Shown piece after piece: positions 17,982 to 64,000 of a stretch of DNA of 64,000 bases; positions within the stretch are counted from its first letter, which is position 1, and the number at the start of each line of letters is the position of its first letter. A program made the position numbers and the translations under genes. The stretch comes from Neoarius graeffei (Eukaryota > Chordata > Actinopteri > Siluriformes > Ariidae): assembly GCF_027579695.1 (NCBI RefSeq), contig NC_083587.1, positions 57,080,238 to 57,144,237 on the forward strand, given 5' to 3'. The notes below the pieces were generated by a model that was not told where the DNA came from, did no database searches, and worked only from the letters and a program-made list of their open reading frames with translations.

Positions 17982-18380
17982 TGTCCACCCTGTCATGGAC
18001 AAATTCAAAGTACAGTAAACACATTGTAATTACATAGTGATTATAAAATGTACATTTGCAGAAAGCTATTTAGTCCATTTCTTAACAATATATTTTAGTT
18101 AATGGGAAAAGTATTTGGATAATAATGAAATTATGGCAAACTATTTGTTTCTCTATAAAATCTGCAAAGAGTTGTACTTTCTGTTCTAAATAAAATCTAA
18201 CAACAAAGATATCTGGTCAAACTTTCAAACAATACTATTTGGCCCTCATTTGTTTATTAAGGAATCACACAAAAGGTTTTGCTAACTTGTGAAAATAATT
18301 TGTTTATTTTCATAAAACATGAAAATGACAGGGTGGACAATGACATGACAGGGTGGACCTTGGGCATGACAGGGTGGACA
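17982..18380. repeat. TGACAGGGTGGACA motif cluster (unit 3 left side)
   Basis: One inverted copy is at 17982-17995 and three direct copies at 18326-18339, 18346-18359 and 18367-18380. Together with 21306-21684 these bracket the transposon-type gene. Confidence 0.65.
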
Positions 18381-19005: not shown

Positions 19006-19444
19006 ACTGTGGGTGGTAGAAGAGAGCAACTGGACTTGTTTGAAGATTCTTGAAAACGTTTCACCTCTCATCCGAAAGGCTTCTTCAGTTCTGTCTGACT
19101 AAGGCCCTGTCCACACGGCAACGGATTCAGGTGAATCTGATAAAATTGTTTATCGTTTCGGCCTGGCATCCACACGGTACCGGCGTTTTGGGTGCCCCAA
19201 AACGAAATCTTTTGAGAACGGGTTCCAGAGTGGAAAAATCTGGCAACGGCACCATTGCGAAGTCGTCTGGATGAGTAGAACGGATTTGTTTACAATGACA
19301 TCACAACCACATGACTGTGAGTGCTTCACGCCGGGTAGAAGTGTAATGAAATCAATGCGAGTTGTCAACCAATCCTATAACTTGGTTCATGAAACGCGCT
19401 TACAAAATATTTTCACTGTGAATATTTATTGTGTAATGGTGAAA

Positions 19445-19486
<42 letters not shown>

Positions 19487-20612
19487 TGAGAGAGAGAGAG
19501 AATAGCCCTTAGGGCAGAGTCTTTAGTCCAAACACTGCGGAAGCAGTATAACCAAAACCGCGCACCGCCCGTGCGCTTTCCAAAAACAAAAACAATCCCG
19601 CCAGCAAAAATAGGGGAAAAAAGGAACGATCTCACCTCTTCAGATGTTGGTTTAAGTCCGACAATACAGTCCTCAAAAAGGGCATAGAAGAACAAAGTAA
19701 TCCATCAACGTGTAGCATTCAATTTATTCCAGACCATTAAAGAATTCTGGAGGATATCAGAATGTTGGCGTACCGGCTTCCATCTACCCCCATTCATTCC
19801 TCTTTCCGCGTCTCCATTCAAAAAACGAGCACGTGATTTAAAGGGACTATATCCATAGGATAGGGAGTGAGAAGGTGTGTGTGTGTGTGAGACAGTGACA
19901 GGGTGAGTGACAGGGAAGAACCTAGGCTCATGCTCGCCCTGAATTTCTCTTAAAGTGAAGGCAGAAGAACGTTCAGCGCCTGGCCAGGCTTTCTATGTAT
20001 TAATTTACATAGACGTTTTAATATGAAATATAAATAAGTGTCTTAGACAATAGATACTATTTTACGCTACTGATTAATAATCAAAACTTTATGTGGCTGA
20101 TGCTACAGAAGAAGGGGTTTATGCGCATGCGTCCTACTTCTATTGTTCTGGTGTCTCCGATGGGACCATCTTACAGCGCACGTAGAGGTGTGGCATGTGT
20201 ATTGCATCGTTTTCAGCAAGCGTTGCGTTGCCATATGTACCTGATATTTTACTGATCCGTTGCCCATGTTGACGCGATATTAAAAAAAAAAAAAAAATCT
20301 CGTTGCCATTGTCGTGTGGATGTAGCCTAGTAGGGAATTCTTTTTTGTCAACCTGGAACGGCCATCACTGAACAGAGGTGGAGGTCTAAGACATCATTCA
20401 TCAGCCACCTACTATGCAGCCATCAGAATTCTGATTCTGATTCGATGATGATCCATGAGAGGATAAATACCTGATACTCCCTATTAGTCAGACAGAACTG
20501 AGGAAGCCTTTCGGATGAGAGGTTTTCAAGAATCTTCAAACAAGTCCAGTTGCTCTCTTCTATCACCCACAGTTTACTATGACCTGGATGACTGAGAATC
20601 TTCACAGACAAA
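19006..20612 (+). mobile_element. Penelope-like element remnant inserted in the gene
   Basis: It is flanked by an 11-bp duplication cctcttcttat (18995-19005, 20613-20623). Its ends are inverted copies of about 95 bp (AACTGGACTTGTTTGAAGAT and complement). The plus strand near 20353-20430 encodes ERPSLNRGGGLRHHSSATYY, the typical C-terminal tail of Penelope-like GIY-YIG/RT proteins. Only terminal parts remain, and a hAT-like MITE fills the middle. Confidence 0.65.
19101..20332. mobile_element. hAT-like MITE inside the Penelope-like element
   Basis: Left end AAGGCCCTGTCCACACGGCA; right end TGTCGTGTGGATGTAGCCTA, a loose inverted match. It has no coding sequence, includes a GAGA microsatellite (about 19445-19500), and has a run of A at 20281-20297. 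No clear target duplication was found, so the superfamily is tentative. Confidence 0.45.
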
Positions 20613-21305
20613 CCTCTTCTTATGTTTTTCAGTGTTGGTTTTCTCTTTTGCGAGCTGTGCCTCCAATATTTCAATCTGTTTTTTCAGTTTCCTCATTGAA
20701 CTCCTTTGAATACTTTCCCCTTGATGCCGTTGCCTGAAACACAAAATATTTGTAAGGATTTTTATGATTTTAGAGAGTTAGTTATCAATATGTCATTTTT
20801 TGGGGACATAAACAGTTGATAACTGTCCTTCAAATAAATCTAAACTTTCTGATAAGTCATCAGCTAAACTTCCAATGATCTAACCTGGTGGGCCCTGGCT
20901 GAGGCTGATTTTCAGGAGTTTCAGGAGCTGCAGGGGAGTCAGGTGGTGTCTCTGACTGCAGCAAAGCACTTGACTTTTTGCCTCTCTTCATTTCTTTCTT
21001 TTTGCCCTCTTCTCTCTCTCACTGAGCTCACTGATACCCTTCTTCTTTCCAGTATCTCTGTCTTTATTCCATCTGTCCATTTCTTTCTCAAGGTACTTTC
21101 TTCTTCTGTCCGGGTCAGCATCACAACGTTCCCGATATCGCCTCGCTATCTCAGCACCTTTTGAACTCATTCCTTTCTAAAAGACAATTCAGTATGTTTC
21201 CTTACACACATTAATTGGCTGTTAAAGTGTTGCAATATACATATTACAACAGCTATTACACACATTTAGTATAAACTATGCACATGTCCTTCCTGTCACG
21301 AACCA

Positions 21306-21684
21306 TGTCCACCCTGTCATGGAAGGCTTGCTGACAGGATGGACAATGGCAGGGTGGACATTTTTGGCCAACATTAGCATTTAATGAGCACATGGTCGAC
21401 CTTCAGTTAGCAACATGATTCAGTTAGCAAGGTGACTGTGTACTGTTTTACAAATATATTTTGAATTTCTGAAAGGTTTTTATATTAATTGATATTTCAC
21501 TATGACAGAGTGGACATGTTAAGCTTGACAACATCCGACTACACACATAATATGATGAAAATTACTAAATATAAGCCACTGTTTCAGCATCTATTGAAGA
21601 AAGACAAAATGATGGTAGTGATGTCACTGAAAACATCAGGGGGTTTCTTAAAGGGGCAGTTGCCCCATAATGACAGGGTGGACA
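21306..21684. repeat. TGACAGGGTGGACA motif cluster (unit 3 right side)
   Basis: Copies are at 21306-21319 (inverted), 21332-21345, 21347-21360, 21503-21516 and 21671-21684, three of them with one change. Same layout as 25-401. Confidence 0.65.
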
Positions 21685-22229
21685 GCAATTTCAAGTACAC
21701 GCGCAAAATGTTCAATATTATTATGAAAATAGAATATACATGATCAAAAAATTCATTTTATCAAATAAATTGTTGTGGACAATAAAACTATGATTTTTTT
21801 TATTTATTTAGTCTCATTTAACCACTTATTACACATACTGTACGGTAGTTAGCAGAGCAGTGTGTGGGACATGCCAAAACCACGTACATCCAATGAAAAA
21901 AAATGGTATAAAATGAAGGAAACACATTTCAAGAGACTTAGCATTGTACTGATATGTGTGTAAATGTTTGTCCATTTATAATAAGACCTCAGAGTTTCAT
22001 TAGTCTGCTACATTTTCATGATGACTGAGTGATTCTGATGAGGACACCAAAGGCACTTAATAGTGATATTGACTCTACAGCACAAAGAGTCAGCATAGCA
22101 AAGAAACAAAAGGAATTATTGAGCGTAACAACCTCTCAAGCATATCTTCTATAGTAAATGTGTGCTATGTGAGTTTGTGTATATCCTCCAAAATGGCCGA
22201 CTTCCGGTTCAAAGCCTCATGCATAATAA
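21685..22229. other. Unassigned AT-rich stretch (unit 3 copy)
   Basis: Counterpart of 402-949. No gene is visible. Confidence 0.4.
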
Positions 22230-22805
22230 GCTATGACATCACTGTGCAAACGAAGAATTTTGCACCAAAACCCAGTAGCTTTCATTATGTTTTCTTTTTT
22301 TATTCTGAAAAGTGAACATAAGTTGAGGGCAGGGCTTTGTACAGGCCACTTGAGATCTTCAATATCAACCTTGGCATACCATGGAACTTGTTTTGTGCAC
22401 AGGGGCATTGTCGTGCGGGAACAGCTTCGGGCCACTTAGTTCTAGTGTAGGGAAATTGTAAAGCTACATCATACAGTATCAGTCAAAAGTTTGGACGCGC
22501 CTTCTAATTCAATGTTTTTTCTTTATTTTTATTAATTAAAAGTCACTTCATGTCTTGAAGTAATGATGGATGTCATTTCTCTTTACTTAGTTGAGCGGTT
22601 CTTGATATAATACTGTATGGATTACTACAGTTGTGGATGGAATAGGACTTTTACTGTCCTATTATTTACTATTTACAGTTTATGTCAAGCACATTCAGAA
22701 GGCAAGAAACTCATCCACTAATTAACTTTTGACGAGGCACACCTGTTAATTGAAAAGCATTCCAGGTGACTAGAAGAAGAAAAAAAAAAGAAAAAAACTT
22801 TATTC

Positions 22806-22806
<1 letters not shown>

Positions 22807-22838
<32 letters not shown>

Positions 22839-25800
22839 TCGTGGGGACTGGTGCAATGTGGATTGGGTGGCAGTCGAAGGCAGGGGCCTCGACGACCTGA
22901 TCCCCGGACACAGCGGCTGGCTGTTGGGACATGGAATGTCACTTCGCTGGGGGGGAAAGAGCCTGAGCTTGTGCGGGAGGTTGAGAGGTACCGGCTAGAG
23001 ATAGTCGGGCTCACCTCCACGCACAGCTTGGGCTCTGGAACCCAGCTCCTCAAGAGGGGCTGGACTCTCCACTTCTCTGGAGTCGCCCGTGGTGAGCGGC
23101 GGCGGGCTGGTGTGGGCTTGCTTATAGCTCCCCAGCTCAGCCGCCATGTGTTGGAGTTTACCCCAGTGAACGAGAGGGTCGCCTCGCTGCGCCTTCGGAT
23201 TGGGGAGAGGGCTCTTGCTGTTGTTTGTGCCTATGGCCCAAATAGCAGTATAGAGTATCCGGCCTTCTTGGAGTCCCTGGGAGAGGTACTGAGGAGTGCT
23301 CAGACTGGGGACTCCATTGTGTTACTGGGGGACTTCAATGCTCACGTGGGAGATGACAGTGACACCTGGAGGGGCGTGGTTGGGAGGAACGGCCTCCCCG
23401 ATCTGAACCCGAGTGGTGTTTTGTTATTGGACTTCTGTGCTAGTCACGGTTTGTCCATAACGAACACCATGTTCGAGCATAGGGGTGTCCATAAGTGCAC
23501 GTGGCACCAGGACACCTTAGGTCGGAGGTCAATGATAGACTTTGTAGTCGTTTCATCTGATCTCCGGCCCTATGTCTTGGACACTCGGGTGAAGAGAGGG
23601 GCTGAGCTGTCAACTGATCACCACCTGGTGGTGAGTTGGATCCGCTGGCGGAGGAGGAAGCTGGACAGACCTGGCAGGCCCAAACGTATGGTGAGGGTCT
23701 GCTGGGAACGTCTGGCCGAGCACTCTGTCGGGGAGGTCTTTAACTCCCACCTCCGGGAGAGCTTTTCCCAGCTTCCGAGGGAGGCGGGGGATATTGAGTC
23801 TGAGTGGACCATGTTCTCTACCTCCATTGTGGACGCAGCTGTTCGGAGCTGTGGCCGCAAGGTCTCCGGTGCCTGTCGTGGCGGCAATCCCCGAACCCGG
23901 TGGTGGACACCGGAAGTAAGGGATGCCGTCAAGCTGAAGAAGGAGTCCTATCGGGCCATGTTAACCTCCAGGACTCCCGAGGCAGCTGACAGGTATCGGC
24001 AGGCCAGGCGTGCTGCAGCTCGGGCAGTTGCGGAGGCAAAAACTCGGAACTGGGAGGAGTTCGGGGAGGCCATGGAGAAGGACTATCGGTCGGCCTCGAA
24101 GAAATTCTGGCAAACCGTCCGGCGCCTCAGGAGGGGGAAGCAGTACTCTGCCAACACTGTTTACAGTGCGGGTGGGGAGCTGTTGACCTCGACTGGGGAC
24201 ATTGTCAGGCGGTGGAAGGAATACTTTGAGGATCTCCTCAATCCCACCGTCATGTCTTCCACTGAGGAGACTGAGGCTGATGACTCAGAGGTGGACTCGT
24301 CCATTACCCAAGCCGAAGTCACTGAGGTGGTTTGCAAGCTCCTCGGTGGCAAGGCACCGGGGGTGGATGAGATCCGCCCTGAGTATCTCAAGTCTCTGGA
24401 TGTTGTGGGGCTGTCTTGGTTGACACGCCTCTGCAACATCGCGTGGCGGTCAGGGACAGTGCCTCTGGAGTGGCAGACTGGGGTGGTGGTCCCTCTTTTT
24501 AAGAAAGGGGACCGGAGAGTGTGCCCCAATTATAGGGGAATCACACTTCTCAGCCTCCCAGGGAAGGTTTACTCCAGGGTACTGGAGAGGAGAATTCGAC
24601 CAATAGTCGAACCTCGGATCCAGGAGGAACAATGCGGTTTTCGTCCTGGTCGCGGAACACTGGACCAGCTCTATACCCTTCATAGGGTGCTCGAGGGTTC
24701 ATGGGAGTTTGCCCAACCAGTCCACATGTGCTTTGTGGATCTGGAGAAGGCATTCGACCGTGTCCCCCGTAGTATTCTGTGGGGGGTGCTTCGGGAGTAT
24801 GGGGTTCGGGGCTCTTTGCTAAGGGCTGTCCGGTCCCTGTACGAACGGAGCAGGAGTCTGGTTCGCATTGCCGGCAGTAAGTCAGACCTGTTCCCAGTGC
24901 ATGTTGGACTCCGGCAGGGCTGCCCTTTGTCACCGGTTCTGTTCATAATTTTTATGGACAGAATTTCTAGGCGCAGCCAGGGGCCAGAAGGAATCCTGTT
25001 TGGGAACCACAGGATTTCATCTCTGCTTTTTGCGGATGATGTTGTCCTGTTGGCTTCTTCAAACCAGGACCTTCAGCATGCACTGGGGCGGTTTGCAGTC
25101 GAGTGTGAAGCGGCTGGGATGAGAATCAGCACCTCCAAGTCCGAGGCCATGGTTCTCGACCGGAAAAGGGTGGCTTGCCCTCTCCAGGTTGGTGGAGAAG
25201 TCCTGCCTCAAGTGGAGGAGTTTAAGTATCTCGGGATCTTGTTCACGAGTGAGGGAAGGATGGAGCGTGAGATCGACAGGCGGATCGGTGCAGCCTCCGC
25301 AGTGATGCGGTCGCTTTACCGGTCCGTTGTGGTGAAGAAGGAGCTGAGCCAAAAGGCGAAGCTCTCAATTTACCGGTCGATCTACGTTCCGACTCTCACC
25401 TATGGTCATGAGCTTTGGGTAATGACCGAAAGGACAAGATCGCGGATACAAGCGGCCGAAATGAGTTTCCTTCGCAGGGTGGCTGGGCGCTCCCTTAGAG
25501 ATAGGGTGAGAAGCACAGTCACTCGGGAGGAGCTCGGAGTAGAGCCGCTGCTGCTCCACATCGAGAGGAATCAGCTGAGGTGGCTCGGGCATCTTTTTCG
25601 GATGCCTCCTGGACGCCTCCCTGGGGAGGTGTTCCAGGCATGTCCCCCCGGGAGGAGGCCCCGGGGAAGACCCAGGACACGCTGGAGGGACTATGTCTCT
25701 CGGCTGGCCTGGGAACGCCTCGGTGTTCTTCCCGAGGAGCTGGCCGAGGTGTCTGGGGAAAGGGAAGTTTGGGCTTCCCTGCTTAGACTGCTGCCTCCGC

Positions 25801-25840
25801 GACCCGGTCCCGGATAAAGCGGAAGAAGACGAGACGAGAG
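22807..25840 (+). mobile_element. RTE-clade (Rex3-like) LINE insertion
   Basis: It is flanked by the 10-bp duplication actttattcg (22797-22806, 25841-25850). The 3' end is CCGGATAAAGCGGAAGAAGA followed by short GACGA repeats, the kind of tail RTE elements carry instead of poly(A). At the 5' junction a run of 30 T (22807-22836) precedes ATTCG and the element proper (about 22842). It is present only in unit 3, so it is younger than the duplication. The 5' end is probably shortened. Confidence 0.9.
22851..25817 (+). CDS. LINE endonuclease/reverse transcriptase, intact 988 codons
   Basis: An apurinic-type endonuclease comes first: TWNVTSL (27-33), [10 protein letters not shown] (158-167), [11 protein letters not shown] (227-237), STDHHLVV (254-261). 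The reverse transcriptase follows: [46 protein letters not shown] with the first catalytic Asp at 630, [11 protein letters not shown], and the FADD box at 727-730. The C-terminal region has [20 protein letters not shown] and a basic [16 protein letters not shown] segment, ending PPRPGPG. The frame is open throughout and every expected motif is in place, unlike all other transposon genes in this window. The coding region is GC-rich compared with its AT-rich surroundings. It makes cDNA by target-primed reverse transcription; whether it is still active cannot be told from sequence. Confidence 0.95.
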
Positions 25841-26318
25841 ACTTTATTCGTCACATGCACACTTCAAGCACAGTGAAATTCATCCTCTGCATTTAACCCA
25901 TCTGAAGCAGTGAACGCACGCACACACTCAGAGCAGTGGGCAGCCACACCAGAGCACCCGGGGAGCAGTCAGGGGTTCGGTACCTTGCTCAAGGACACCT
26001 CAGCCCAAGGCCACCCCACGTGACCCTAACCTGCATGTCTTTGGGGGAAACCGGAGCACCCGGAGGAAACCCACGCAGACAACATGCAAACTCCACACAG
26101 AAAGGCCCTCGCCGGCCACTGGGTTCAAACCCGGAACCCTCTTGCTGTGAGGCAACCGTGCTAACCACTACACCACCGTGCTGCCCCATGACTACCTCAT
26201 GAAGCTGGTTAAGATAATGCCAATAGTGTGCAAAGCATCATCAAGGTAAATGCTGGTGACTATGCAGAATCTAAAATATGGAACATTTTGTTTTTAACAT
26301 TTTTTTTGTTTACTACAC

Positions 26319-26382
<64 letters not shown>

Positions 26383-26937
26383 TATTTCGTAGTTTTGAGA
26401 CCTTCAGTATTGTTCTACGATGTAGAAAATAGCCAAATACAGAAAACCTATGAATGAACAAGTAGGCATTGTCAAACTTTTGACTGGTACTGTATATGAC
26501 ATTCTATACAACTGTGTGTTTGCATCTTTGTGGCAACATTTTAGGAAAGAACCACATATGTGTTCAAGTATCCACAAATTTTTGACCATATAGTGTAGTT
26601 ATCCTCATCTCTTCGGGAATAAAAGCTGCAGTTTTTTTTCTCAGTTCACTAAATTGCCTGATGTAATAAAGCTTGAAATGTTTAAAGTACTAAGAAAGAC
26701 CAAGCATGCAACGTTATCCACATGCTCACACTAAGGATGAGCAAAAACCTCATTTGCTTTACTTTCACCTAATAAGAGAGTTTTAAAGGCATAACGTGAA
26801 GAAAATATCCTAAACATTCTGAACTCTTATGGGTTCTTTGATTGCCTCTCTGGGGAAACCATTAAAGGTCCAATGTAGAACCCAGTAATAGTAATAAACA
26901 AACCAGCAAATGCCATGCTAGTCAAATCCCAGAGTAC

Positions 26938-27158
26938 CAAGCTTTGATGATGTTCCGCTACAACAGTCTATCAGCCATAAGTACCTTTATTTCATCATTG
27001 TCATCAAGTCCGTTGTTAGTGTGCCGCTCCCACCAGTTCACATTGAGGGCCATCGTGAGCATGTGTAGCACCCATCTATCTATCTTCTTGGACAGTTGTT
27101 GAGTCAGGGTCCACGTCACTGAGCCGTAGTGTAGAATGGATTCCACAATCTTGATCAA
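26938..27158 (-). pseudogene. LINE RT C-terminal fragment (unit 3 copy)
   Basis: Counterpart of 3095-3334 with its 3' side lost in a deletion of about 160 bp that joins CCCAGAG to TACCAAGC near 26934. Confidence 0.55.
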
Positions 27159-27211
27159 ACGTCATTCGTAGCTCCTAATTCCTCTTTAAACAGTTGTAGT
27201 TTCCCTTCTTG

Positions 27212-27810
27212 TGCATTTCATACCTTGTGGTCTTGACCTTTTTCTTGTTTCATGTTTTGAATTGATTTACAGCGTCAATCCTGAGATTGAGATGCTGACC
27301 TCTTCTCCTCAGACCTCCCTGATCCATCCTGATGCCCTATGTCTGGTCGGAGTCTCATCACATCGCTCCTGTGGAGGACGGCCCCATATGGACAGTTGAA
27401 AGTCACACTTGGAAGATGCTCTGGACCTTCCAATGCTCTTATAGCCGAGGACTACAGCTGACTTGCTAACTTTAGGACTGCAGTTGTCATGAACAGTTTT
27501 GCACTCAAGTTTCCATCAACTGAAGAGTTATAACATCAACAAAACTGACTTTGTGTTAAAACTGTTAATGTTATAGTCATGTTGTCTGTTGTCACCGAAA
27601 TGAGAATGGGTTTCATTTTGAGTCTGGTTCCTCTCAAGGTTTCTTCATGTCGTCTGAGGGAGTTTTTCCTTGCCACCGTCGCCACTGGCTTGCTTATTGG
27701 GGATAGATTAGGGATAAAATTAGCTTATGTTTAAAGTCATTCAAATTCTGTAAAGCTGCTTTGCAACAATGTCTATTGTTAAAAGCGCTATAAAAATAAA
27801 CTTGACTTGA
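27212..27810 (+). repeat. Common fish interspersed repeat (unit 3 copy)
   Basis: Same as 3390-3995. Confidence 0.6.
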
Positions 27811-29250
27811 CACTGGATGATGTTGACTTGTGTTTTGGTTCCAGCTCTGAAGGTCAAGCCCAAGTCAAGGATAAGCCTCAGTAGAGACCCCATGATGACG
27901 TCCTGCTCTTGCCCATACACTTCTGTTCCATATGATGTAAATCAGGAGAGCACACTTGAGGTTGTTGCCTTGCTTTGTGTGTCCCGTTTTAATGTCTTAA
28001 AGCTACTATTAATTACCCTAGTCCTGGGTTATGACTAAACTGCAACCGGTGGTGAGTCACAGGTCCAGGAGGACTTGAGTATTGGCAAAAGTGGAGTTAC
28101 CCCTTAAATCACTGTTGCTCCCAGGTCTGCTCTGACCCTGAGTGGTAGCACCTGCCTGGGTTCCAGCTATGGGTTAAATAGTACATTACCAATAAGGCGC
28201 TGGCAGCAGGGCACTTTTCGGTGCAATGTGGCAAATGAACCCAACAGGGTCAATGGCACACCACCTGATGGCATGCGGAAGAGCCACTCAAATGGCCAAC
28301 GGACGGCATCACTCAGCAAGTCAGTTGTCACTGTGGGACAACTTCCATACCCATCAGGTCTGCGTGCACCAAATGGCATCAGGTCTGGAGGTCCAGAGAG
28401 ACAATACGACAGGGGCACGACATCACTTGTCTTACCTTACTGTGCAAGGTGCTTCAGTAGGAAAGGAGAAGCAGTCTGGTGCGGGGCGGGCCTCATGGCC
28501 CATTTGCGTTTCTGCCCATCCATTCTGGCTAGCGATGGACAGCCACCAACAACAATTAATTACCCAAAAACTTAATAGCAGCAAGGAAGCTCTAGCAAGA
28601 AGCGCTGCCATCTTTAGCATCATGTTTGGCCTTCATGAAATACAACAGCACACATGCAAATTGTACAAAACTTGTTTATTACAAAAAAAGTGTATCAATA
28701 ATGATCAATTTGACATTTACAACAAGCATTTGCTTTGGCAGTACGTAGAAAATACACGCAACTCCTAACAAATATGTCACTATACTCAAGTTTTCTTCAT
28801 TTGTTAATTTACATTTTTCCACAAAATTGACATGTATTAAAAAAAAACCCACACAATATTGACAAACATCCATCCCCATGTCAACAAGGGTGAAATTTAA
28901 ATGAAGATTAATCTCAAACTTAATCATGTGACGTCATCATTCACCACTATGCATATAGTAGCATATAGGCTACTTTTGGATTAAATTACACTTTAACAAT
29001 GCTAGATAAGCAAGCTAGCTACCTATACAAAGAACTACAATAATACAGGTTTAGCCATCATTAATAATTCAAGAGCAGCTTCCTGATGTTAACTCACTGA
29101 TCAAGTTCACTGTTCAGCTAGCTAAACTTATGTAACCTGTTTTCCCATCACATGATCTAGTTTGTGATGAAATTCTGATGTTTGGTAAAATCAGGACGTA
29201 CTTTAAATTGGCAGTGTATAAGAATACAAGTGGAAAGGCTGGACTTTGGT
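27811..29250. other. Unassigned duplicated sequence (unit 3 copy)
   Basis: Counterpart of 3996-5430, including the 180-codon ORF at 28226-28768. No recognisable gene. Confidence 0.4.
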
Positions 29251-29545
29251 TTTTTGTAGTCAAAAGATAATTTTCCCCAGGATAATAAAAATTCTCAAAA
29301 CAATTAAAAAAAAAAAGTCTGGCTAGGTTTCTTCACTACATAGATGCGCATTAGATCATATCATAACCTCAATCCTTCTTAACCTCGGTATATGGTTTTA
29401 AAAAAAAACAACAGCATTTTAGCCCATAGTGTTGGAGCCATTCAGCAGGTGAACTTAAGAAAAATGATAAATCAGTCCAGCAGGATAAATAAGTTAATGT
29501 CCTTTCCCGTGAGTGAGTGCAGAAACGAGCACATGGTCCGTATTA

Positions 29546-31535
29546 TTAGAACTTGCAGCAGTACCCACAGCCTTTATTCTTACAGCAGTTGCAGCAGTAA
29601 AAGCACAGAGAGAGGTGGCTCTGACGCTTTGTTCTGAACAGCACCTGGGGAGAAAAAACAACCCCGTGAAGCTTTAAATGACTCAGCCTTTTTTCAACTT
29701 GTCTTAGGACGAGTGTTAAGGATTTACAGTGATTTAGGCCCATTATTGAAATGAACTAATTTTGATCATAATTTTGCCTTTGAAGACACCAGTAACAGTA
29801 ATAACAGTTTTTATAGAGTTAAGGATCAGAAATGATAATCACCCGCAGCCATTGGCAGCAAACTAAAGACAAGAGAAATTCAACATCACACCAAATTATT
29901 ACCGGTGAGCCAAAACATGTTTGCTAGAATGACAATTGCATCTTTAGAAAGTCCTTTAGAAACTGCTCTGTTGAGCTAGCATAGATTTAAACATGCAAAC
30001 CCTTGCTTTGATTCAGCTAGTGAGTCAGAGTTTTCAAATACTCTCAGTTTACAAGAGTCACATGAAAAATCCAGTCAAAAATTTCAAGTTCAAAACAGTT
30101 GGAGGTTAGGTGCCTTGCTCAAGGGCACTTCAGGGAATTGAACCAGCAACCTTGTGGTCCAAAAGCTGCTTCTCTAACCATTAGGATGTGGCTTCCTTGT
30201 TTGAGCAGCTTTATTCACATTTACACATGGGGCTAAACCACCAGATATCATGTTGAGTAAGTACATGGTGATTAGTACCTCAGGACTCGTCTCCTTCGCC
30301 AAATCCAATGTTGCAGCCACGCCCTGATCCAGATTCTGAGGTGCGTCGCTTTCCGCTGGTTCCTCAAGCCGTACCTGAGGATCGAAAGCAAAATTTAATG
30401 AAATTCAGTTTTAATTCCATTACTTATGTGAAGTGGCATGACATAAAAATACAAATTAAATCTAATTTCAAATTTGTGTAAAAGTAAAAAGGAATAAAAA
30501 ACAATTAAAATATTTAAAAAAAGGTTTGACATGATTTAAAGGAATTGAATAAATACATTTCCTTAAAACAAGAAACTACAAGTTTAAATTCTCATTTAAG
30601 TTTTTAATATTAATAAATATTTTTTTTTAAATGAGGCTATCAATCATTCTGTACGCAAATATATAAAAACAGCTATATATGTATTTAATGTAATCAAATA
30701 ATTAAACAAGATATTGCAATGAACAAATTATATGCAAATAAACACTTAAATGGAAAAAAAAAAAAAACACACTACCGTTCAAAAGTTTGGGGTCACCCAG
30801 ACAATTTTGTGTTTTCCATGAAAAGTCACACTTTTATTTACCACCATAAGTTGTAAAATGAATAGAAAATATAGTCAAGACATTTTTCTGGCCATTTTGA
30901 GCATTTAATCGACCCCACAAATGTGATGCTCCAGAAACTCAATCTGCTCAAAGGAAGGTCAGTTTTATAGCTTCTCTAAAGAGCTAAACTGTTTTCAGCT
31001 GTGCTAACATGGTTGTACAAGGGTTTTCTAATCATCCATTAGCCTTCTGAGGCAATGAGCAAACACATTGTACCATTAGAACACTGGAGTGAGAGTTGCT
31101 GGAAATGGGCCTCTATACACCTATGGAGATATTGCACCAAAAACCAGACATTTGCAGCTAGAATAGTCATTTAGCACATTAGCAATGTATAGAGTGGATT
31201 TCTGATTAGTTTAAAGTGATCATTGAAAAGAACAGTGCTTTTCTTTCAAAAATAAGGACATTTCAAAGTGACCCCAAACTTTTGAACAGTAGTGTATTTT
31301 TAGAAAATACTTAAAATTAAATAAAATATAAACACATGCTTAAATTTAAAAAAAAGTTCTACTTTTAATGTGATTATGAAAAATAACTTTATTTTAAAGT
31401 GTTAATGTGTAAACAGGATATTAAAGGGAAAGTGATGTTTACCTCAGACTCTGGGAAAGGAACAGCTGCACTCTGGAGCGCGCAGACGCACATGAGGATG
31501 ATGGTGACGGCGCGCGCGATGCTCATTGGCTTCAT
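29546..31535 (-). CDS. hamp: Hepcidin copy B (three exons), all eight cysteines
   Basis: Coding exons are 31443-31535, 30279-30374 and 29546-29644, phase-0 GT/AG introns of 1068 and 634 bp, 95 aa. The signal peptide is the same as in copy A, followed by an acidic prodomain, RTKR at 67-70, and the 25-residue mature peptide beginning QSHLSLC. Mature cysteines are at 7, 10, 11, 13, 14, 19, 22 and 23, the spacing known for hepcidin-25, so four disulfides can form. It differs from copy A at mature residue 11 (Cys versus Tyr) and at one prodomain residue (Ala versus Val). It lies 23.8 kb from copy A in the same orientation. The usf2-like exon is upstream on the same strand. Expected role: secreted iron regulator acting on ferroportin, with possible antimicrobial activity. 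Confidence 0.96.
30103..30190. repeat. SINE-like fragment in hepcidin B intron 2
   Basis: Duplicate of 6283-6365. Confidence 0.5.
30770..31294. mobile_element. Tc1-type MITE in hepcidin B intron 1
   Basis: Same insertion as 6954-7478, with matching TIRs and no coding capacity. Confidence 0.85.
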
Positions 31536-31714
31536 TTTGTTTTTTGTTGTTTTTAATCAGTCGTCCCTTCAGAGTCGTTTAAAATAAATGTAAGAACTTT
31601 CACTAACTTTTTTTTGCTCCTGTTTCGGAGAAGGTTCTTCTGTAAAGCTTCCTCTGCTCCTCTCAGACTCCCTCTGCGTCTCCTGGCGACCTGAAAACTT
31701 CGCGCGCCGCGCTG

Positions 31715-31723
31715 CTATTTATG
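31715..31723 (-). promoter_or_regulatory. Hepcidin B TATA box
   Basis: CATAAATAG on the minus strand, about 180 bp before the ATG, with the CCCCGCCCC GC box just upstream. Similarity to copy A ends at about 31838, some 115 bp upstream of the TATA box. Confidence 0.6.
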
Positions 31724-31967
31724 CGCGCGCTGTTTTCGCTACACAAGCCCCGCCCCTTCCCGCTAAGCGCGTGCTTGCGAAACCCAGTATGATTTCCAGT
31801 TCAATCTGAGTTTAAAAGAAAAAAAGTTTAAAGTTTAATCACATTTAAAATAATGTTTTTTATTCATTTAAAGTAATCTGTCATTATTACTGCTTTGTTT
31901 GTTTGCTTGTTTACATTAAATTGTGTTTTAATCTATTTTAATTTTAAATTATCTGATTTCATCTGGG

Positions 31968-42569: not shown

Positions 42570-43833
42570 TCCGTACAGAACAGCTTCAACTCTGGGATGT
42601 TGGTGGGTTTCCTCACATGAACTGTTCACTTCAGGTCCTTCCACATCATTTCGATTGGATTAAGGTCAGGACTTTGACTTGGCCATTGCAAAACATTAAC
42701 TTTTTTCTTCTTTATCCATTCTTTGGTAGAACGACTTGTGTGCTTAGGGTTGTTGTCTTGCTGCATGACCCACCTTCTCTTGAGATTCAGTTCATGGACA
42801 GATGTCCTGACATTTTCCTTTAGAATTCGCTGGTATAATTCAGAATTCATTGTTCCATCAATGATGGCAAGCCGTCCTGGCCCAGATGCAGCAAAACAGG
42901 CCCAAACCATGATACTACCAGCACCATGTTTCACAGATGGGATAAGGTTCTTATGCTGGAACACAGTGTTTTCCTTTCTCCAAACACTTCTCATTTAAAC
43001 CAAAAGTTCTATTTTGGTCTCATCCATCCACAAAACATTTTTCCAATAGCCTTCTGGCTTGTCCACGTGATCTTTAGCAAACTGCAGATGAGCAGCAATG
43101 TTCTTTTTGGAGAGCAGTGGCTTTCTCTTTGCAACCCTACCATGCACACCATTGTTGTTCAGTGTTCTCCTGATGGTGGACTCGTGAACATTAACATTAG
43201 CCAATGTGAGAGAGGCCTTCAGTTGCTTAGAAGTTACTAAGCCGACTATTACATATATGCCTTGCTCTTGGAGTGATCTCTGTTGGTCGGCCACTCCTGG
43301 GGAGGGTAACAATGGTCTTGAATTTCCTCCATTTGTACACAATCTGTCTGACTGTGGATTGGTGTAGTCCAAACTCCTTAGAGGTGGTTTTGTAACCTTT
43401 TCCAGCTTGATGAGCATCAACAATGATTTTTCTGAGGTCCTCAGAAAGCTCCTTTGTCCATGCCATGATACACTTCCACAAACATGTGTTGTGAAGATCA
43501 GACTTTGATAGATTCCTGTTCTTTAAATAAAACAGGGTGCCCACTCACACCTGACTGTCATCCCATTGATTGAAAACACCTGACTCTAATTTCACCTTCA
43601 AATTAACTGCTAACCCTAGAGGTTCACATACTTTTGCCACTCACAGATATGTAATATTGGATCATTTCCCTCAATAAATAAGTGACCAAGTATAATATTT
43701 TTGTTTCATTTGTTTAACTGGGTTCTCTTTATCTACTTTTAGGACTTGTGTGAAAATCTGATGATGTTTTAGGTCATATTTATGGAGAAATATAGAAAAT
43801 TCTAAAAGGTTCACAAACTTTCAAGCACCACTG
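42570..43833 (-). mobile_element. Tc1 transposon 1, left-truncated
   Basis: The minus strand encodes a broken transposase: HTH N-terminus (MAWTKELSEDLRKIIVDAHQ at 43466 downward, then the GRPTEITPR linker), ENVRTSVHELNLKRRWVMQQ, QDNNPKHTS and SPDLNPIEMMW. The first Asp is kept (WMDETKIEL), but frameshifts split the ORF and the left TIR is missing. The right TIR (about 43630-43833) ends CAAGCACCACTG. Confidence 0.85.
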
Positions 43834-43857
43834 TGTGTGTGTGTGTGTGTGTGTGTG
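43834..43857. repeat. GT microsatellite between two Tc1 ends
   Basis: About 12 GT units separate the right TIR of Tc1 1 from the left TIR of Tc1 2. Confidence 0.9.
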
Positions 43858-43859
43858 TA

Positions 43860-45444
43860 CAGTGGTGCTTGAAAGCTTGTGAACCCTGTAGAATTTTCTA
43901 TATTTCTGCATAAAAATGATCTAAAACATCATCAGATTTTCACACAAGTCCTAAAAGTAGATAAAGAGAACCCAGTTAAACAAATGAGACAAAAATATGA
44001 TACTTGGTCATTTATTTATTGAGGAAAATGATCTAATATTACATATCTGTGAGTGGCAAAAGTATGTGAAACTCTGCTTTCAGTATCTGGTGTGACCCCC
44101 GTGTGCAGCAATCACTGCAATTAAATGTTTCCGGTAACTGTTGATCAGTCCTGCACACCGACTTGGAGGAATTTTAGCCCATTCCTCTGTACAGAACAGC
44201 GTCAACTCTGGGATGTTGGTGGGTTTCCTCACATGAAATGCTCGCTACAGGTCCTTCCACAACATTTTGATTGGATTAAGGTCGGGACTTTGACTTGGCC
44301 ATTCCAAAACATTAACTTCATTCTTCTTTAACCATTCTTTGGTAGAACGACTTGTGTGCTTAGGGTCGTTGTCTTGCTGCATGACCCACCTTCTCTTGAG
44401 ATTCAGTTCATGGACAGATGTCCTGACATTTTCCTTTAGAATTCGCTGGTGTAATTCAGAATTCATTGTTCCATCAATGATGGCAAGCTGTCCTGGCCCA
44501 GATGCAGCAAAACAGGCCCAAACCATGATATTACCAGCACCATGTTTCACAGATGGGATAAGGTTCTTATGCTGGAATGCAGTGTTTTCCTTTCTCCAAA
44601 CATAACGCTTCCCATTTAAAGCAAAAAGTTCTATTTTGGTCTCTTCCATCCACAAAACATTTTTCCAATAGCCTTCTGGCTTGTCCACGTGATCTTTAGC
44701 AAACTGCAAATGAGCAGCAATGTTCTTTTTGGAGAGCAGTGGCTTTCTCCTTGCAACCCTGCTATGCACACCATTTTTTGTTCAGTGTTCTCCTGATGGT
44801 GGACGCATGAACATTAACATTAACCAATGTGAGAGAGGCCTTCAGTTGCTTAGGATTTACCCTGGGGTCCTTTGTGACCTCACGACTATTACACGCCTTG
44901 CTCTTGGAGTGGTCTCTGTTGGTCGACCACTCCTGGGGAGGGTAACAATGGTCTTGAATTTCCTCCATTTGTACACAATCTGTCTGACTATGGAGATGGT
45001 TTTGTAACCTTTTCCAACTTGATGGGCATCAACAACCCTTTTTCTGTGGTCCTCAGAAATCTCCTATGTTCGTGCCATGATACACTTCCACAAACATGTG
45101 TTGTGAAGATCAGACTTTGATAGATCCCTGTTCTTTAAATAAAACAGGGTGCCCACTCACACCTGATTGTCATCCCATTGATTGAAAACACCTGACTCTA
45201 ATTTCACCTTCAAATTAACTGCTAATCCTAGAGGTTCACATACTTTTGCCACTCACAGATATGTAATATTGGATCATTTTCCTCAATAAATAAATGACCA
45301 AGTATAATATTTTTGTCTCATTTGTTTAACTGGGTTCTCTTTATCTACTTTTAGGACTTGTGTGAAAATCTGATGATGTTTTAGGTCATATCTATGCAGA
45401 AATACAGAAAGTTCTAAAGGGTTCACAAATTTTCAAGCACCACT
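43860..45444 (-). mobile_element. Tc1 transposon 2, complete ends, dead transposase
   Basis: 1585 bp, TA at the left, TIRs of about 210 bp starting CAGTGGTGCTTGAAAGCTTG and ending CAAGCACCACT. The longest transposase piece is 44769-44245 on the minus strand. Of the DD34E triad the first Asp is Glu (WMEETKIEL), the second Asp is kept (QQDNDPKHTS) and the last Glu is Lys (PDLNPIKMLW). The N-terminal part is frameshifted and has lost a segment in the HTH region. Confidence 0.9.
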
Positions 45445-57494: not shown

Positions 57495-57993
57495 TATATC
57501 ACGCATGCAGTGGATAAAGATGATGTTGAAAACCTCTGCAGTTTTCCTTTAATAGTAAGGTGGACATTGAAATGAATGAATGGTAGCTCAGTAGTAGTGA
57601 GGTTCAAGTAACACAGAATTACTGTTGTATACTAAATGAATAAAAGATCAGTAACCAAAAAGCTGATATTGCCAATAGAGGTATGAACAGCAAAATGGAA
57701 ACATGAACAAAGCTATTAAAAAAAAAAAAAGTGAAAACTCAAAGTTCTCACAGTAAAGCTTAATAAATAGACAAGAATGAACTAAAGCAGGTGTCCAGGT
57801 TCGACAGCTCACTCAGTTTTTCACGTCCTCTGTATTTAGCATGGAGCGCTTCATGCTTTGGAATAACATCGCTCGCTCTGGAACGCCATCCTGCTCCTCA
57901 TTCAGTCTGTATTAATATGCAAAAATCCAACAAGACAATTTAAAAAAATCTGTCCTTCATTTGTGAAAGAAAGAATCTATGGCATGTCTGTCC
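57495..57993. other. Presumed 3' UTR and flank of the usf2-like gene
   Basis: No repeat recognised apart from a run of A at 57718-57731. It lies downstream of the usf2-like stop codon; no clear minus-strand AATAAA was seen. Confidence 0.35.
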
Positions 57994-58095
57994 TCAGACT
58001 CGGTGCGACGGCACATCTGTGACTTCTGCTGCTGTGGCTCGGCACTGCTGTAGCTCAGCTCGGAGCAAAGCGTTCTCATTCTTCAGCTCCTCCAC
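57994..58095 (-). CDS. usf2: Last coding exon of upstream stimulatory factor 2 (partial)
   Basis: After a TTTCAG acceptor (minus strand, 58096-58101) the exon reads VEELKNENALLRAELQQ and then CRATAAEVTDVPSHRV before a TGA. The first 17 residues are almost those of the end of the USF2 leucine zipper (IEELKNENALLRAQLQQ in mammals). USF1 reads VEDLKNKN at this point, so USF2 fits better. The last 16 residues are unlike the mammalian end. USF proteins are bHLH-leucine zipper factors that bind CACGTG E-boxes. The remaining exons should lie at higher coordinates; none was found up to 64000, so the preceding intron would exceed 5.9 kb. Hepcidin follows downstream on the same strand, as in mammals. 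Confidence 0.7.
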   Translation of the reverse strand: MEELKNENALLRAELQQCRATAAEVTDVPSHRV

Positions 58096-58678
58096 CTGAA
58101 ACCAGCAGGTCTAAATTACTTCAGAAGTTATTTTAATCACTGCCTGTTCACTCCTGCTAATAAAATGCTAGTTTATCTGTGTGATGCTAGCAGCAAGCTA
58201 GTATACACTTGTTGTTTATATTAAAAAAAAACAAACAAACAAGAAAAAACATATTTAAGGCTAGATATTTTAGACATTTTATTTACCATACATTAGTTTC
58301 TGAGGTGATCCTTCTGTGAAGCACATAGCTTGATTAGCATTGTTAGCACAAAAAAAGTTTCAATTTGGCTATCATTTGATGATTTCTTCTTTGAGAACAC
58401 TTTTATCATACTTTCTCGACAAGTGTGATATTCACTGAAGTGTTGTTTTCACCTAAGGTGTTAGCAACAAACTGACCATAAACACCAAAATAACTTGATT
58501 AGCATTAAAATATGAAAACAATGGGCACATTACAGTTAGGCTAACAATAATGACACGAACCTGAATGTGGTGAGGAATACAGATGTCGAGCATGGAAAGT
58601 CAATAACATTAGTAACAAGTGTTGCCAGGCAAAACAAACCTCGCCCAGTAGCACTTATGATGAATATGAAGGAAGATC
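58096..58678. other. Presumed usf2 intron, no repeat seen
   Basis: No exon or known repeat is visible. Confidence 0.35.
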
Positions 58679-59005
58679 TCATCTCATTATCTCTAGCCGC
58701 TTTATCCTGTTCTACAGGGTCGCAGGCAAGCTGGAGCCTATCCCAGCTGACTACGGGCGAAAGGCGGGGTACACCCTGGACAAGTCGCCAGGTCATCACA
58801 GGGCTGACACATAGACACAGACAACCATTCACACTCACATTCACACCTACGCTCAATTTAGAGTCACCAGTTAACCTAACCTGCATGTCTTTGGACTGTG
58901 GGGGAAACCAGAGCACCCGGAGGAAACCCACGCGGACACGGGGAGAACATGCAAACTCCGCACAGAAAGGCCCTCACCGGCCACGGGGCTCGAACCCGGA
59001 CCTTA
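58679..59005 (-). mobile_element. Type-1 SINE, 5'-truncated
   Basis: From ATCTCATCTCATTATCTCTA to GAACCCGGACCTT; the tRNA-like head is missing. Confidence 0.85.
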
Positions 59006-59042
59006 TCCAGTAAATACAGCATATATATTTACTCTATGAAGC

Positions 59043-59353
59043 TGTGGCAGCGGGGGCGTGGTCAAGCGCCGGTCTGTGACAGGAGGGCGGAGTCAGGGAA
59101 GGTAAGTGGCAGAATCACGACACCTGAGAACAATTAACCTGTGTTTGTGTGTGTCTTCCCAGTGACCGCGCCCTATGTAAGGAGGGAGAGTGAGAGCAGA
59201 GGAGCTGATCTCCAGACTAGACGCTGGCTGTGTGTGTGTGTGTCTAGGCAATATAACGTTGTTCACTGAAAAGTGTGGCAATAAAGCCGTTTGGCAAACC
59301 TGATCTCTGTCCTGCCGTCCTCAGTGCTCCACCCACACGTAGGGAGTCTTACA
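59043..59353 (+). mobile_element. Solo LTR of a Ty3/Gypsy-type element
   Basis: 311 bp, starting TGTGGCAGCGGGGGCGTGGT and ending GGGAGTCTTACA. A 5-bp duplication gaagc flanks it (59038-59042, 59354-59358). It includes a polyadenylation signal (AATAAA near 59280). No internal region is present, so it is an LTR-LTR recombination remnant. The clean duplication suggests it is fairly young. Confidence 0.8.
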
Positions 59354-60229
59354 GAAGCATAATCCAAAAATGAAGAATTTAAAAATCACAGAGGTAAAAT
59401 ATACCAAGTGTCTGTATTTTATATTATTCTACTTTTATCTCTTACAGTTTTTGAAACTGAAACCTCCGAACCAAGGCTGACATACACACGCTGTCGCTGT
59501 GACCCAAACTCTTATTTCCCAGAAAAGACCTGGCGCTAGAGCTCAGTGGAGCGCACTTTCCCTCTGTAATCAGCATAAACATGTCTGAAAGCAATTTCTT
59601 TAGTCTAGTCCATTTATTTCGAATTGTATACACTCACCGGCTATTTTAATCGGAACACGTGTATGCACATGCGAGACTGTTACACTCTTACATTCTTACA
59701 GCACGATGACGTAGTGGCTAGCGCCTCTTTATGAGGCAGTAGCCACAACAAAAACGATTTTGACCTTTTTGGTGACCTTGACCGGATGACCTTCAAAATG
59801 TTGGAGGTTCTATGTGAGACCAATACCCATCTATCCTGAAAGTTTCATGAAGATTGGTCCAGCCGTTTTCCCATAATATTATTAAAAAAAAGAAACCCCA
59901 CCGAAAACAATACCTTGCCCCCTGGTGGACTCTGTCCCAGGCGAGGTAACTCGAAGGGAACTCCATAGAGTGTATACCAGTGGAGAACTGTCAAGGCCTT
60001 ATAGGCATTCAGTGAAGGCCCAAATATATCAGCATTTCAAATGTTATATTTAATTTCTTTCATTTTTTCATAATTTCATTATAATTATTCTCTTCTAATT
60101 TGGTCTCATTTTCTATCAAATTTGCTTCAGAAATGAAAGGGCTACTGTCCTGAAAACATTAGAGTTATTCAATGAGATTTGTTTGTTTGTTGTGTCTAGG
60201 CTGAGAAGAGTTTAGAGCTGGCTCACTCA
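59354..60229. other. Unassigned, with an old repeat at 59695-59955
   Basis: 59695-59955 contains GACCTTGACCGGATGACCTT and GATTGGTCCAGCCGTTTTCC, patterns common in fish repeats, ending in CCCCCTGGTGGACTCTG. Nothing else is recognised. Confidence 0.4.
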
Positions 60230-60505
60230 TGCCCCTTTTCCACCAAAGCAGTTCCAGGGCTGGTTCGGGGCCAGTGCTTAGTTTGGAACCGGGTTTTCTG
60301 TTTCCACTGACAAAGAATTGGCTCTGGGGCCAGAAAAACCAGTTCCAGGCTAGCACCAACTCTCTGCTGGGCCAGAGGAAAGAACCGCTTACGTCAGCGG
60401 GGGGGCGGAGTTGTTAAGACCAACAACAATAACAAGACCGCGAAAGATCGCCATTTTTAAGCGGCGAGAAGCAGCAGCTGTACAAACGCGAAGTCATCCA
60501 TTATT

Positions 60506-60538
<33 letters not shown>

Positions 60539-60770
60539 TCCGTGTTGTTTTTGCTTCGATATTCGCGCCAAGGTTTATGCAAACGTAGTGACGTAACTGA
60601 CGTATATAGCGACATAACTGACGTATACAGCGACGTAATGACGTGGCTTCCCTTAGCACCGCGAGCTATGGAAGAGCCAACTGGTTCTCAGCTGGCTTGC
60701 GAGTTGAACGAGTTGTGAACCAGCACCAGCCCCGAACCAGCCCTGGAACTGATTTGGTGGAAAAGGGGTA
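60230..60770. mobile_element. MITE with TGCCCCTTTTCCACCAAA ends
   Basis: Left TGCCCCTTTTCCACCAAAGC, right GATTTGGTGGAAAAGGGGTA; a 3-bp TCA duplication (60227-60229, 60771-60773). Subterminal AACCAG/GTTCCAG repeats. Similar in build to the TGGCCC...GGCA family but distinct; Harbinger-like is a guess. Confidence 0.6.
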
Positions 60771-61153
60771 TCATTGGTTAGGACTTCATTGCTGGGACAG
60801 AAGGCCATGGCAGCTTATGTTTATGTAGGAAGTGACAGATGAATAAATCAAATCAGATTCTTATTTATAGTGGGAGGGACCAAAAATTTAAATCACCCTA
60901 GGCCTGCTCAAAGGCCAGTGCAAGCTTAACCGCGAGTCAGCACCGTCAACGCAACAGTGAAGTCACCTTCCAGCCGGTGTAGCATTCATGACTAGTGTTA
61001 GCGAATGCTGATAAAGCGGTCAAGTAGGGCTGCACGATTATGGAAAAAATGATAATCACGATTATCTTGATCAAAATTGTAATCGCGATTATTAATCACA
61101 ATTATTCTTGATGTTAGGGAAATCACTTAAATTTTATTTCACTATATTCAAAC

Positions 61154-62171
61154 TAGGGGTGTGCGATCTGACGATATAAAATCATTAAGAATAAGAACGA
61201 GTAGAAGATCGCAGATGATCTGCCAAAGTGGAGAAATCGTATAGATCACCTTGGCCAATGAGCGCAATAACTTTTTTTTTCCCTTTGGGTACAATAACTT
61301 GACGTTCTATGCTGGTTCCCGCCGACGCGGCAGACGTAAGACGTCCTTAACCTGTAGAGGGACTGAAAATCCGCGATCGCGGAAAACGGGCGGAAATTGC
61401 GGAATTATGCATCTGAAACGGAACTTATTGTCAGAAATGGAATCTACACATTCTAAGCTTGGGGAGGCTGGAGCCGCCGATGGGAAAACGAAACTAAAGC
61501 CGAGCACTGTGGCTCTTCGTCGGGCTGGAGCCCGGGATAGAAACGAAACCTAAGCGGAGCCCCGCGGCGCGCCTCCGCGCCGCGGGGCTCCGCTTAGGTT
61601 TCGTTTCTATCCCGAGGTGGCGCGCCGTGCCCGCGCTGGTTCTTTGGGCAGAGTGCAGAGGTCTCTGGCTGTCAAGTTTGGGGAAGCTTCTTTAAATATA
61701 AACTACATTTCGAGCACAAGAGGCTGGTTCTAGCAACATTCAAACAGCCACAATAAAGCTATGCAGAAGCCTCCCCACCACCAGTCTGGACCATTTTCAA
61801 AAAGCTATTTGGTGTTTTGATACTTAAATCATTTCAAAATAACCGAAGACTGTGTGTTATTCAACATTTCATATTTTACTTTCTTTTTTATATTCTAAGA
61901 ATGCACTTTATCAGAGTGATGTTTACTTAGTGTTGTTGTCTTCACATCCAATAGTGCACTTTATCAGTGTTATCAGTGTGTTTACAATGTTTGCACATGC
62001 AAAATTGCTACTATTAATTAAAATCTGTTCAGAAAGGTTTGTAGCCCCAAAATGCCTGTTTTTGTTTTGTTTGGTTTTTTTTTTCGATGGAAGATCATGA
62101 TAAAAAATCGAAATCGAGATTTTATGTTAAAAAATCGTGATATGACATTTTTGCCATATCGCCCACCCCTA
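61154..62171. mobile_element. Inner hAT-type element
   Basis: Ends TAGGGGTGTGCGAT and ATCGCCCACCCCTA, 8-bp duplication attcaaac (61146-61153, 62172-62179). No transposase. It contains a GC-rich palindrome at 61533-61614. Confidence 0.88.
61533..61614. repeat. GC-rich perfect palindrome, 39-bp arms
   Basis: CGGGATAGAAACGAAACCTA ... and its exact inverse around a centre of about 4 bp. Confidence 0.92.
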
Positions 62172-62447
62172 ATTCAAACAAACGATATGAACAGCTTTCA
62201 GTGCAGAATGAAATTTAAAAGAGAAATTCTGATTTCCAAATGACAAATAAATGAAATTTATCCAAGAAATTACCAAAGGATGAAGGAACTGAAAACTCAG
62301 TTGCAACAATTACATAGCAATAGCATTATACTGAGGCCTACAAGTTTTTAGCTAGAAAGAGCAGCCTATCAACATGCTCTGGCTTTAAACAAGAGCGAAG
62401 GCAGGTCACAGCATTGCCTCCAGTGCTAAATAGTCTGTTCTGACATA

Positions 62448-63140
62448 TGGCCCTTTTCCACTACCCTTTTTCAGCTCACTTCAGCTCACTTCAGCCCGAC
62501 ACGGCTCGCGTTTCGACTACCTCAGAACAGCACGACTCAGCTCGCTTCAGCCCTACTCAGCACCCAAAACTCGCACGGTTTTGGAGTGGGGCTGAAGCGA
62601 GCCAAACCGAGCTGAGTGAGGCTGGGGGTGTGAGCAGACACTCCCCTGTGCACTGATTGGTGAGGAGGAGTGTCCTCACATGCCCACACACGCCCCGCGA
62701 GCACGCTGGGATCTGTAAACACCGTAAACCCGGAAGAAGAATAATTACGAATTACGAGAATTTCTGAAGCCTTATGCGCCTCGCCTCATCTATACGCTCT
62801 TGCCAGTATCTGTTGGCATTGTCGGTGACAACAAGCCACAGCACCAAGACCAGCAACACTAACGACTCCATGTCCTCCATGTTTATTGTTTACTATCTGG
62901 GTCGTGAGACTACCGCTTAAAAGATCACTGATGTCACTGTTTGCGCCGCTTAACGACATCACGTGATGTCCACCCACTTTCGCTAACTCCACCCAATGTG
63001 TCCACCCACTTCCAGCCAGCACGGTTCAGCGTGGTTGTAGTCGAAATGCAACTCCAATAGCCCCACTCAGCTCGACTCAGCCCAACTCAGCACGGCACGG
63101 CTCAGCCCAACTCAGCCGCGTTGGTAGTGGAAAAGCGGCA
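62448..63140 (-). mobile_element. Harbinger-like element, copy c (internally deleted)
   Basis: Same ends as copy a and ATA duplication (62445-62447, 63141-63143), but shorter by about 570 bp. The 42-codon ORF (62752-62880) is still open. Confidence 0.65.
62752..62880 (-). CDS. 42-codon ORF in Harbinger-like copy c
   Basis: Starts MEDMESLVLLVLVLWLVV and ends QKFS, with Asn for Asp in TDNANRYWQ. Third open copy of this short frame in the window. Confidence 0.35.
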   Translation of the reverse strand: MEDMESLVLLVLVLWLVVTDNANRYWQERIDEARRIRLQKFS

Positions 63141-63186
63141 ATAGTTAGCTTTTCTCTCTCACCTCAATCTGTTACCTACTCTCACG

Positions 63187-63297
63187 CCATTAGGGGGCGA
63201 ACCGACGCATGTAAGGTTTCATTATTCCGCCTAAGGCTTGCTTGCTTATTTAGGCGGAGTAATGAAACCTTACATGCGTCGGTTCGCCCCCTAATGG
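63187..63297. repeat. Hairpin MITE, 47-bp arms
   Basis: CCATTAGGGGGCGAACCGAC ... TTCCGCCTAA and its near-exact inverse around GGCTTGCTTGCTTATT. Confidence 0.9.
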
Positions 63298-63601
63298 TTT
63301 GGCGGAGTACTGGACAAAAAGTGCTTAATCATATGCAGCAGAGCTCGGATTTTAAATGGAAATAAATCGCGATTTTCATTTAATTTAATCGTGGCAGCCA
63401 AAATCGCGATTTTCGATTAAATTCGATTAATTGTGCAGCCCTACGGTCAAGCCAGTGCTATTGAGAGCAAGTAGCACAGGTTAACGACCAAGAAACTAAG
63501 ATTTCTGTCTCCAGACTCTTCTTCCACGCATGCTCACCACAGTGTTCATTTCCCTGTGGAATTTACTTAGTTACTTTTAAAATCAATATTGATCGCTACA
63601 C

Positions 63602-64000
63602 TAGGGTGACCAGACGTCCCGGTTTTACCGGGACAGTCCCGATTTGGGGTTGTGTGTCCCGAGTCCCGACAAAAGTCTGTCGGGACACGGATATGTCCCG
63701 GTTTTCACCACTCGCGACGTTTGCGACTGAGCAGCGTGGGAATCATTAGCGGAGAAATGCCTGCATTTACTATTTTGATGAATTGACAGGAATCGCAAAC
63801 TTTCCTGGTTACTGCCCCCTGGCCCTGTGGCATGGGTGTTTATTTAGCTACATTATTCCAGACAGCAGAACGGGTTGCCATGCAACAATAAAATAAACAT
63901 TAACTGGCGCGAATGTTCTTTGTCTAGCAGCTAGCAGCAGTAATGCCGCAGCAATTATGCCGAAAAGAAAATGTACCTTTTCCAAAGATTTACAGGGCAC
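63602..64000 (+). mobile_element. hAT-like autonomous-type element, 5' end (runs off window)
   Basis: Begins TAGGGTGACCAGACGTCCCG with subterminal CCCGG-type repeats, a hAT-like end. A transposase-like ORF starts at 63957. Confidence 0.5.
63957..64000 (+). CDS. Start of a transposase-like ORF (partial)
   Basis: ATG then PKRKCTFSKDLQG, cut by the window edge. The start MPKRKCTF is familiar from fish hAT-like transposase N-termini; 14 codons are too few to be sure. Confidence 0.4.
   Translation, partial: MPKRKCTFSKDLQG

Follow-up and report, generated by a model that had tools for sequence, protein, structure and literature searches.

A Predicted, Divergent USF2-Family Gene Lies Upstream of Tandem Hepcidin Genes in the Fish Neoarius graeffei

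Introduction

Body iron is set by hepcidin. In human, USF2 lies upstream of the hepcidin gene HAMP in the same orientation, an arrangement that we take as our point of reference, and Usf2 knockout mice reportedly lose hepcidin expression, as Nicolas et al. are said to have found in 2001. For fish, predicted USF1 and USF2 sites in a hepcidin promoter, that of the mandarin fish, are already in print (PMC6887715); such sites do not bear on linkage. Syntenic relations have been examined elsewhere (PMC6240063); sections 7 and 8 of that paper do not name the neighbors. We found no description of USF2–hepcidin linkage in fish in the literature searched, most subscription papers lying outside the search. 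A search for usf1l in zebrafish returned no literature, and no fish papers on usf2a or usf2b appeared by title among the matches listed.

The stretch of DNA analyzed here, hereafter the window, is 64 kb long and comprises bases 57,080,238–57,144,237 of a 70.3-Mb contig (C20) in a genome of 2.34 Gb and 38 contigs. At this locus a USF2-family gene and hepcidin stay neighbors in a fish despite a gene of at least 79 kb and a gap of 26 kb, and the USF gene beside hepcidin appears to be a divergent duplicate. All positions are in window coordinates, including those beyond its end.

The Terminal Exon and the Gene Upstream of It

The initial annotation took positions 57994–58095 for the end of a USF2 zipper. 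On the minus strand, 58095–57994 encodes VEELKNENALLRAELQQ; preceded by a ttcag acceptor and read as a last exon, it gives VEELKNENALLRAELQQCRATAAEVTDVPSHRV and then a TGA stop. Searched alone against 177,635 distinct PDB sequences, this 33-amino-acid exon has a sole match at E ≤10, to human USF2 (8ia3, E 0.0019), which is modest taken by itself. The surrounding DNA (57990–58100) matches the genome once, at its own position. A chance match to a coiled-coil exon is ruled out because seven further exons upstream share its frame and agree with it in order, strand, and phase. The annotation had proposed looking for the remaining usf2 exons beyond 64 kb, and there they are, all on the minus strand: at 76001–75873, 86584–86490, and 97455–97397; further upstream at 117779–117695, 126209–126050, and 127209–127117; and, the most upstream exon found, one that ends at 136787, its start not fixed, placed by a weak match (E 0.38) and by phase. 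Translated together, the eight exons form one open frame to the stop, with GT donors on all seven upstream exons and AG acceptors on the six that have a defined start. Positions 57994–58095 are thus confirmed as the true terminal coding exon of a USF2-family gene, as the 8ia3 match and the upstream exons agree.

This gene, which we call usf2b, has a predicted span of at least 79 kb, a minimum because its opening coding exon or exons were not located. Its introns, from 3' to 5', measure 17,777, 10,488, 10,812, 20,239, 8,270, 907, and 9,577 bp. Within the window, 58096–64000 (minus strand) is sequence of the last intron, the first 5.9 kb of its 17,777 bp, and the exon that precedes this intron in the gene (76001–75873) lies outside. 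One of the introns carries, at ~114.8–117.5 kb on the minus strand, reverse frames that repeat those of a LINE in the hepcidin cluster (22770–25817), a related copy in the opposite sense. As predicted from its exons, usf2b looks like a functional second usf2 gene with its 3' end in the window.

USF2 or USF1

When the exons of the basic helix-loop-helix (bHLH) zipper are joined, human USF2 (8ia3) comes first of the 21 PDB sequences listed (E 3.6e-46, 158.8 bits); USF1 (1an4, a shorter chain) scores 93 bits, and the remaining 19 score at most 33.5. The helix-loop-helix alone cannot separate the two families, because over its 54 residues usf2b is identical at 47 to USF1 (1an4) and at 47 to USF2. 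The N-terminal exons are more telling: AVIQSPFSNGGSPAVE..GEARFSY gives E 2.3e-12 against human USF2 and 0.004 against human USF1. Both the zipper and the N-terminal exons thus appear to be of USF2 type. In a tree, the USF1 group is split from usf2b, the C23 gene described below, and human USF2 with 98% bootstrap support, and a topology of 141 columns that places usf2b with the USF1-like genes is disfavored (AU 0.041); a USF1 identity is ruled out by the N-terminal exons and the tree. An intact USF-specific region and a canonical C-terminal tail were not found in usf2b, which reads QFYVMSTPEVPQ..RTEPCAMK and has a different tail.

Nor does the exon match a different leucine-zipper gene better, an outcome that the initial annotation had allowed for: USF2 8ia3 is its best match in PDB, and a search of the genome yields 13 protein matches, nine of which belong to four USF loci, the other four being weak (E 0.003–0.14). 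Scanning the whole genome with Pfam HLH gave 129 matches, with scores for 150 of the 190 candidates, but not the usf2b exons, because introns cut the domain; that scan is therefore unfit for counting USF genes.

The Hepcidin Cluster

A genome search with the Pfam hepcidin family (PF06446) gave six matches at E ≤1. The two that pass the curated cut-off are both in the window and both on the minus strand, so that two intact hepcidin genes lie downstream of usf2b on its own strand, as the initial annotation had it. Each encodes a preprohepcidin of 95 amino acids in three exons. In copy A these are the signal peptide exon (31443–31535), the propeptide exon (30279–30374), and the exon of the mature peptide QSHLSLCFYCCNCCKNKGCGYCCKF with its eight cysteines (29546–29644; minus strand throughout, PF06446 53.8 bits). 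Copy B occupies 7627–7719, 6458–6553, and 5725–5823, also on the minus strand, and scores 49.6 bits. Only two of the 288 coding bases differ between the copies, and both are replacements: A38V in exon 2 and, in exon 3, a Tyr in place of the conserved Cys of mature position 11, which leaves copy B with seven cysteines. Upstream, their likeness ends ~310 bp from the start codons (at 31843 and 8026).

The two genes lie in a series of three tandem units (~1–13171, 13205–20243, and 21283–31843) whose aligned blocks share 92.8 to 99.1% identity. No hepcidin gene is present in the middle unit: the counterpart of a 4-kb stretch of the first unit (5432–9429) is missing between 16949 and 17332, and ~380 bp of repeat stand in its place. 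A local tandem triplication and one deletion would account for two hepcidin genes.

The third unit also carries, at 22770–25817 on the plus strand, a 1015–amino acid open frame that matches the reverse transcriptase family RVT_1 (E 2.1e-37) and is absent at the matching place of the first unit. It is a young LINE insertion.

The Gap

From the usf2b stop (57994) to the hepcidin A start codon (31535) is 26,458 bp, close to the 26 kb of the initial annotation, which had also described the distance as stretched by transposons. That description is fair. The gap (31536–57993) is repeat-rich: at least 37% of it matches 42 other loci of this genome in blastn (187,049 bases, flanks on contig C20 included), and at least 42% is covered once repeats inside the window are added, both shares being lower bounds and the other 58% unclassified. 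At 42570–45444 (minus strand) stand two tandem copies of a Tc1/mariner-type transposon, 91.7% identical and with the transposase in pieces; two open reading frames (ORFs) there match Pfam DDE_3, HTH_Tnp_Tc3_2, and HTH_SB. No other gene is recognized. Among the ten of the 52 gap ORFs of at least 80 amino acids that were run against Pfam, no family rose above its cut-off, and matches to Med31 and Caleosin (E <0.01) fell under their own cut-offs and are taken as chance. Read by eye, the open frames in the 20 kb past the window's low end and in the stretch from 127 to 154 kb include transposon-like ones and no other gene that we recognized.

Age and Meaning of the Linkage

A USF2-family gene therefore stands upstream of hepcidin on the same strand, with no gene between them in a scan of ten of the 52 long gap ORFs. 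For a 2.34-Gb genome with four USF loci, simple arithmetic gives a chance of ~2 in 100,000 that its single hepcidin cluster would lie downstream of any of them on the same strand and no more than 27 kb away. Because of this figure, and because human has the same arrangement, the neighborhood is very unlikely to be accidental; its position suggests that the USF2–hepcidin pair has persisted since the fish–tetrapod split.

Whether regulation has held the pair together is a separate question. Control elements for hepcidin in the usf2 introns or the gap could have kept the genes linked by selection, and the linkage has indeed been kept despite a gap and introns grown to tens of kilobases; the loss of hepcidin said to follow in Usf2 knockout mice points the same way. 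The promoters speak against this. The initial annotation had stated that USF factors bind E-boxes in the mammalian hepcidin promoter, a remark that finds no echo here: CACGTG is absent from the 1.2 kb before each hepcidin start codon, and CANNTG occurs eight and three times against ~4.6 expected in shuffles. Promoters without CACGTG in that range lend no support to regulation by USF, and the hepcidin copies are alike over only ~310 bp upstream. We regard linkage by selection as quite improbable; passive inheritance would be the simplest account.

A Second USF2-Family Gene

A search of the whole genome with the bHLH-zipper finds four USF loci: usf2b on C20 and one each on contigs C23, C17, and C29. 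The loci on C17 and C29 hold USF1-type genes. The C23 gene, which has canonical motifs, with the N-terminal region GQFYVMMSPPDVLQTGTPRTIAPRTHTYS and the C-terminal end IEDLKNDNALLRAQLQQHGLEISGETISQ, is identical to human USF2 at 81 of 92 bHLH-zipper positions, versus 74 of 92 for usf2b, and with the N-terminal block at 122 of 140 aligned columns, versus 108 of 140. By sequence comparison, usf2b is thus the more divergent USF2-family copy and the C23 gene the nearer to human USF2. The initial annotation had foreseen that usf2 might map elsewhere in the genome, and this came half true: the gene closer to human USF2 is on C23, and the gene beside hepcidin still belongs to the USF2 family. Its USF2-type N-terminal exons and zipper and its position adjoining hepcidin might suggest an ordinary usf2 orthologue present in one copy, but this reading is contradicted by the closer C23 gene on both counts of identity, and is highly improbable.

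We consider it probable that usf2b is a second usf2 gene that has kept the USF2–HAMP neighborhood, and that it and the C23 gene (usf2a) are products of the teleost whole-genome duplication. A teleost duplication is favored because there are two usf1-like and two usf2-like loci, the count left by one genome duplication, and because it offers a simple account of the match in position to human HAMP. The trees are less accommodating. The best tree joins the C23 gene to human USF2 with 86% support over 92 columns and 61% over 141, in both cases leaving usf2b outside, which is not the pattern of duplication twins and counts against reading the two genes so. Over 141 columns, AU values are 0.71 for C23 with human, 0.48 for C20 with C23, and 0.0185 for C20 with human alone, so that both of the first two topologies are allowed and the third is disfavored.

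The best topology in both trees is the one expected if usf2b were a more ancient USF2-like paralogue that arose in the early vertebrate duplications and was retained in this lineage, with the C23 gene the direct orthologue of human USF2. Residues common to usf2b and USF1 and changed in the C23 gene and human USF2 (e.g., IQEL, SNHR, and QQVE) agree with such an origin. However, the likelihood difference is only 1.5 units and the AU test makes no choice; P at column 18 and T at column 64 are common to usf2b and the C23 gene against human USF2 and USF1; and the USF paralogue next to hepcidin would have to differ between fish and human. An older paralogue is rather unlikely. It is also unlikely that the USF gene on the hepcidin side forms a USF2-like lineage of its own, one that predates the fish–tetrapod split or specialized quickly once the teleost duplication had occurred, with a distinct activation region and tail, the ordinary usf2 having moved elsewhere; if it did, the long time that it has spent linked to hepcidin would suggest a USF specific to iron.

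Under the favored teleost duplication, usf2a would have retained an ancestral-like protein and usf2b would have drifted in the N-terminal activation part and the C-terminal tail, its basic region, helix-loop-helix, and zipper staying intact; usf2b may accordingly still bind DNA. Inserted repeats would have extended its introns as well as the distance to hepcidin. At this locus one can test if the linkage is passive or regulatory, and if the diverged copy serves an iron-related function.

Comparison with Described USF2 and Hepcidin Genes

Human USF2 (8ia3) and the USF2–HAMP pair share with this locus the USF2 family, the place upstream of hepcidin, and the orientation. The differences lie in scale, the gene here being at least 79 kb long and the gap 26.5 kb, and in the ends of the protein. 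The tail of usf2b is CRATAAEVTDVPSHRV where human USF2 has HNLEMVGEGTRQ; similarly, usf2b reads MSTPEV (MSTPEVPQ) and TEPCAMK where the human motifs are MMTPQDV and THPYSPK.

The C23 gene shares with usf2b its family, its exon cuts, and 77 of 92 bHLH-zipper residues. It keeps QFYVMM and a C-terminal LEISGETISQ, whereas usf2b is changed in both regions, and, unlike C20, C23 has no hepcidin above the Pfam cut-off. Exactly where usf2b has introns of 10,488 and 17,777 bp, the C23 gene has introns of ~82 and ~124 bp (3236–3317 and 3447–3570 of its locus); growth has therefore not been uniform over the genome. The hepcidin genes themselves share with fish hepcidin type 1 (Hamp1) the three exons and an RTKR before QSHLSLC. 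Copy A also has the eight cysteines, whereas copy B departs from Hamp1 in the Tyr at mature position 11.
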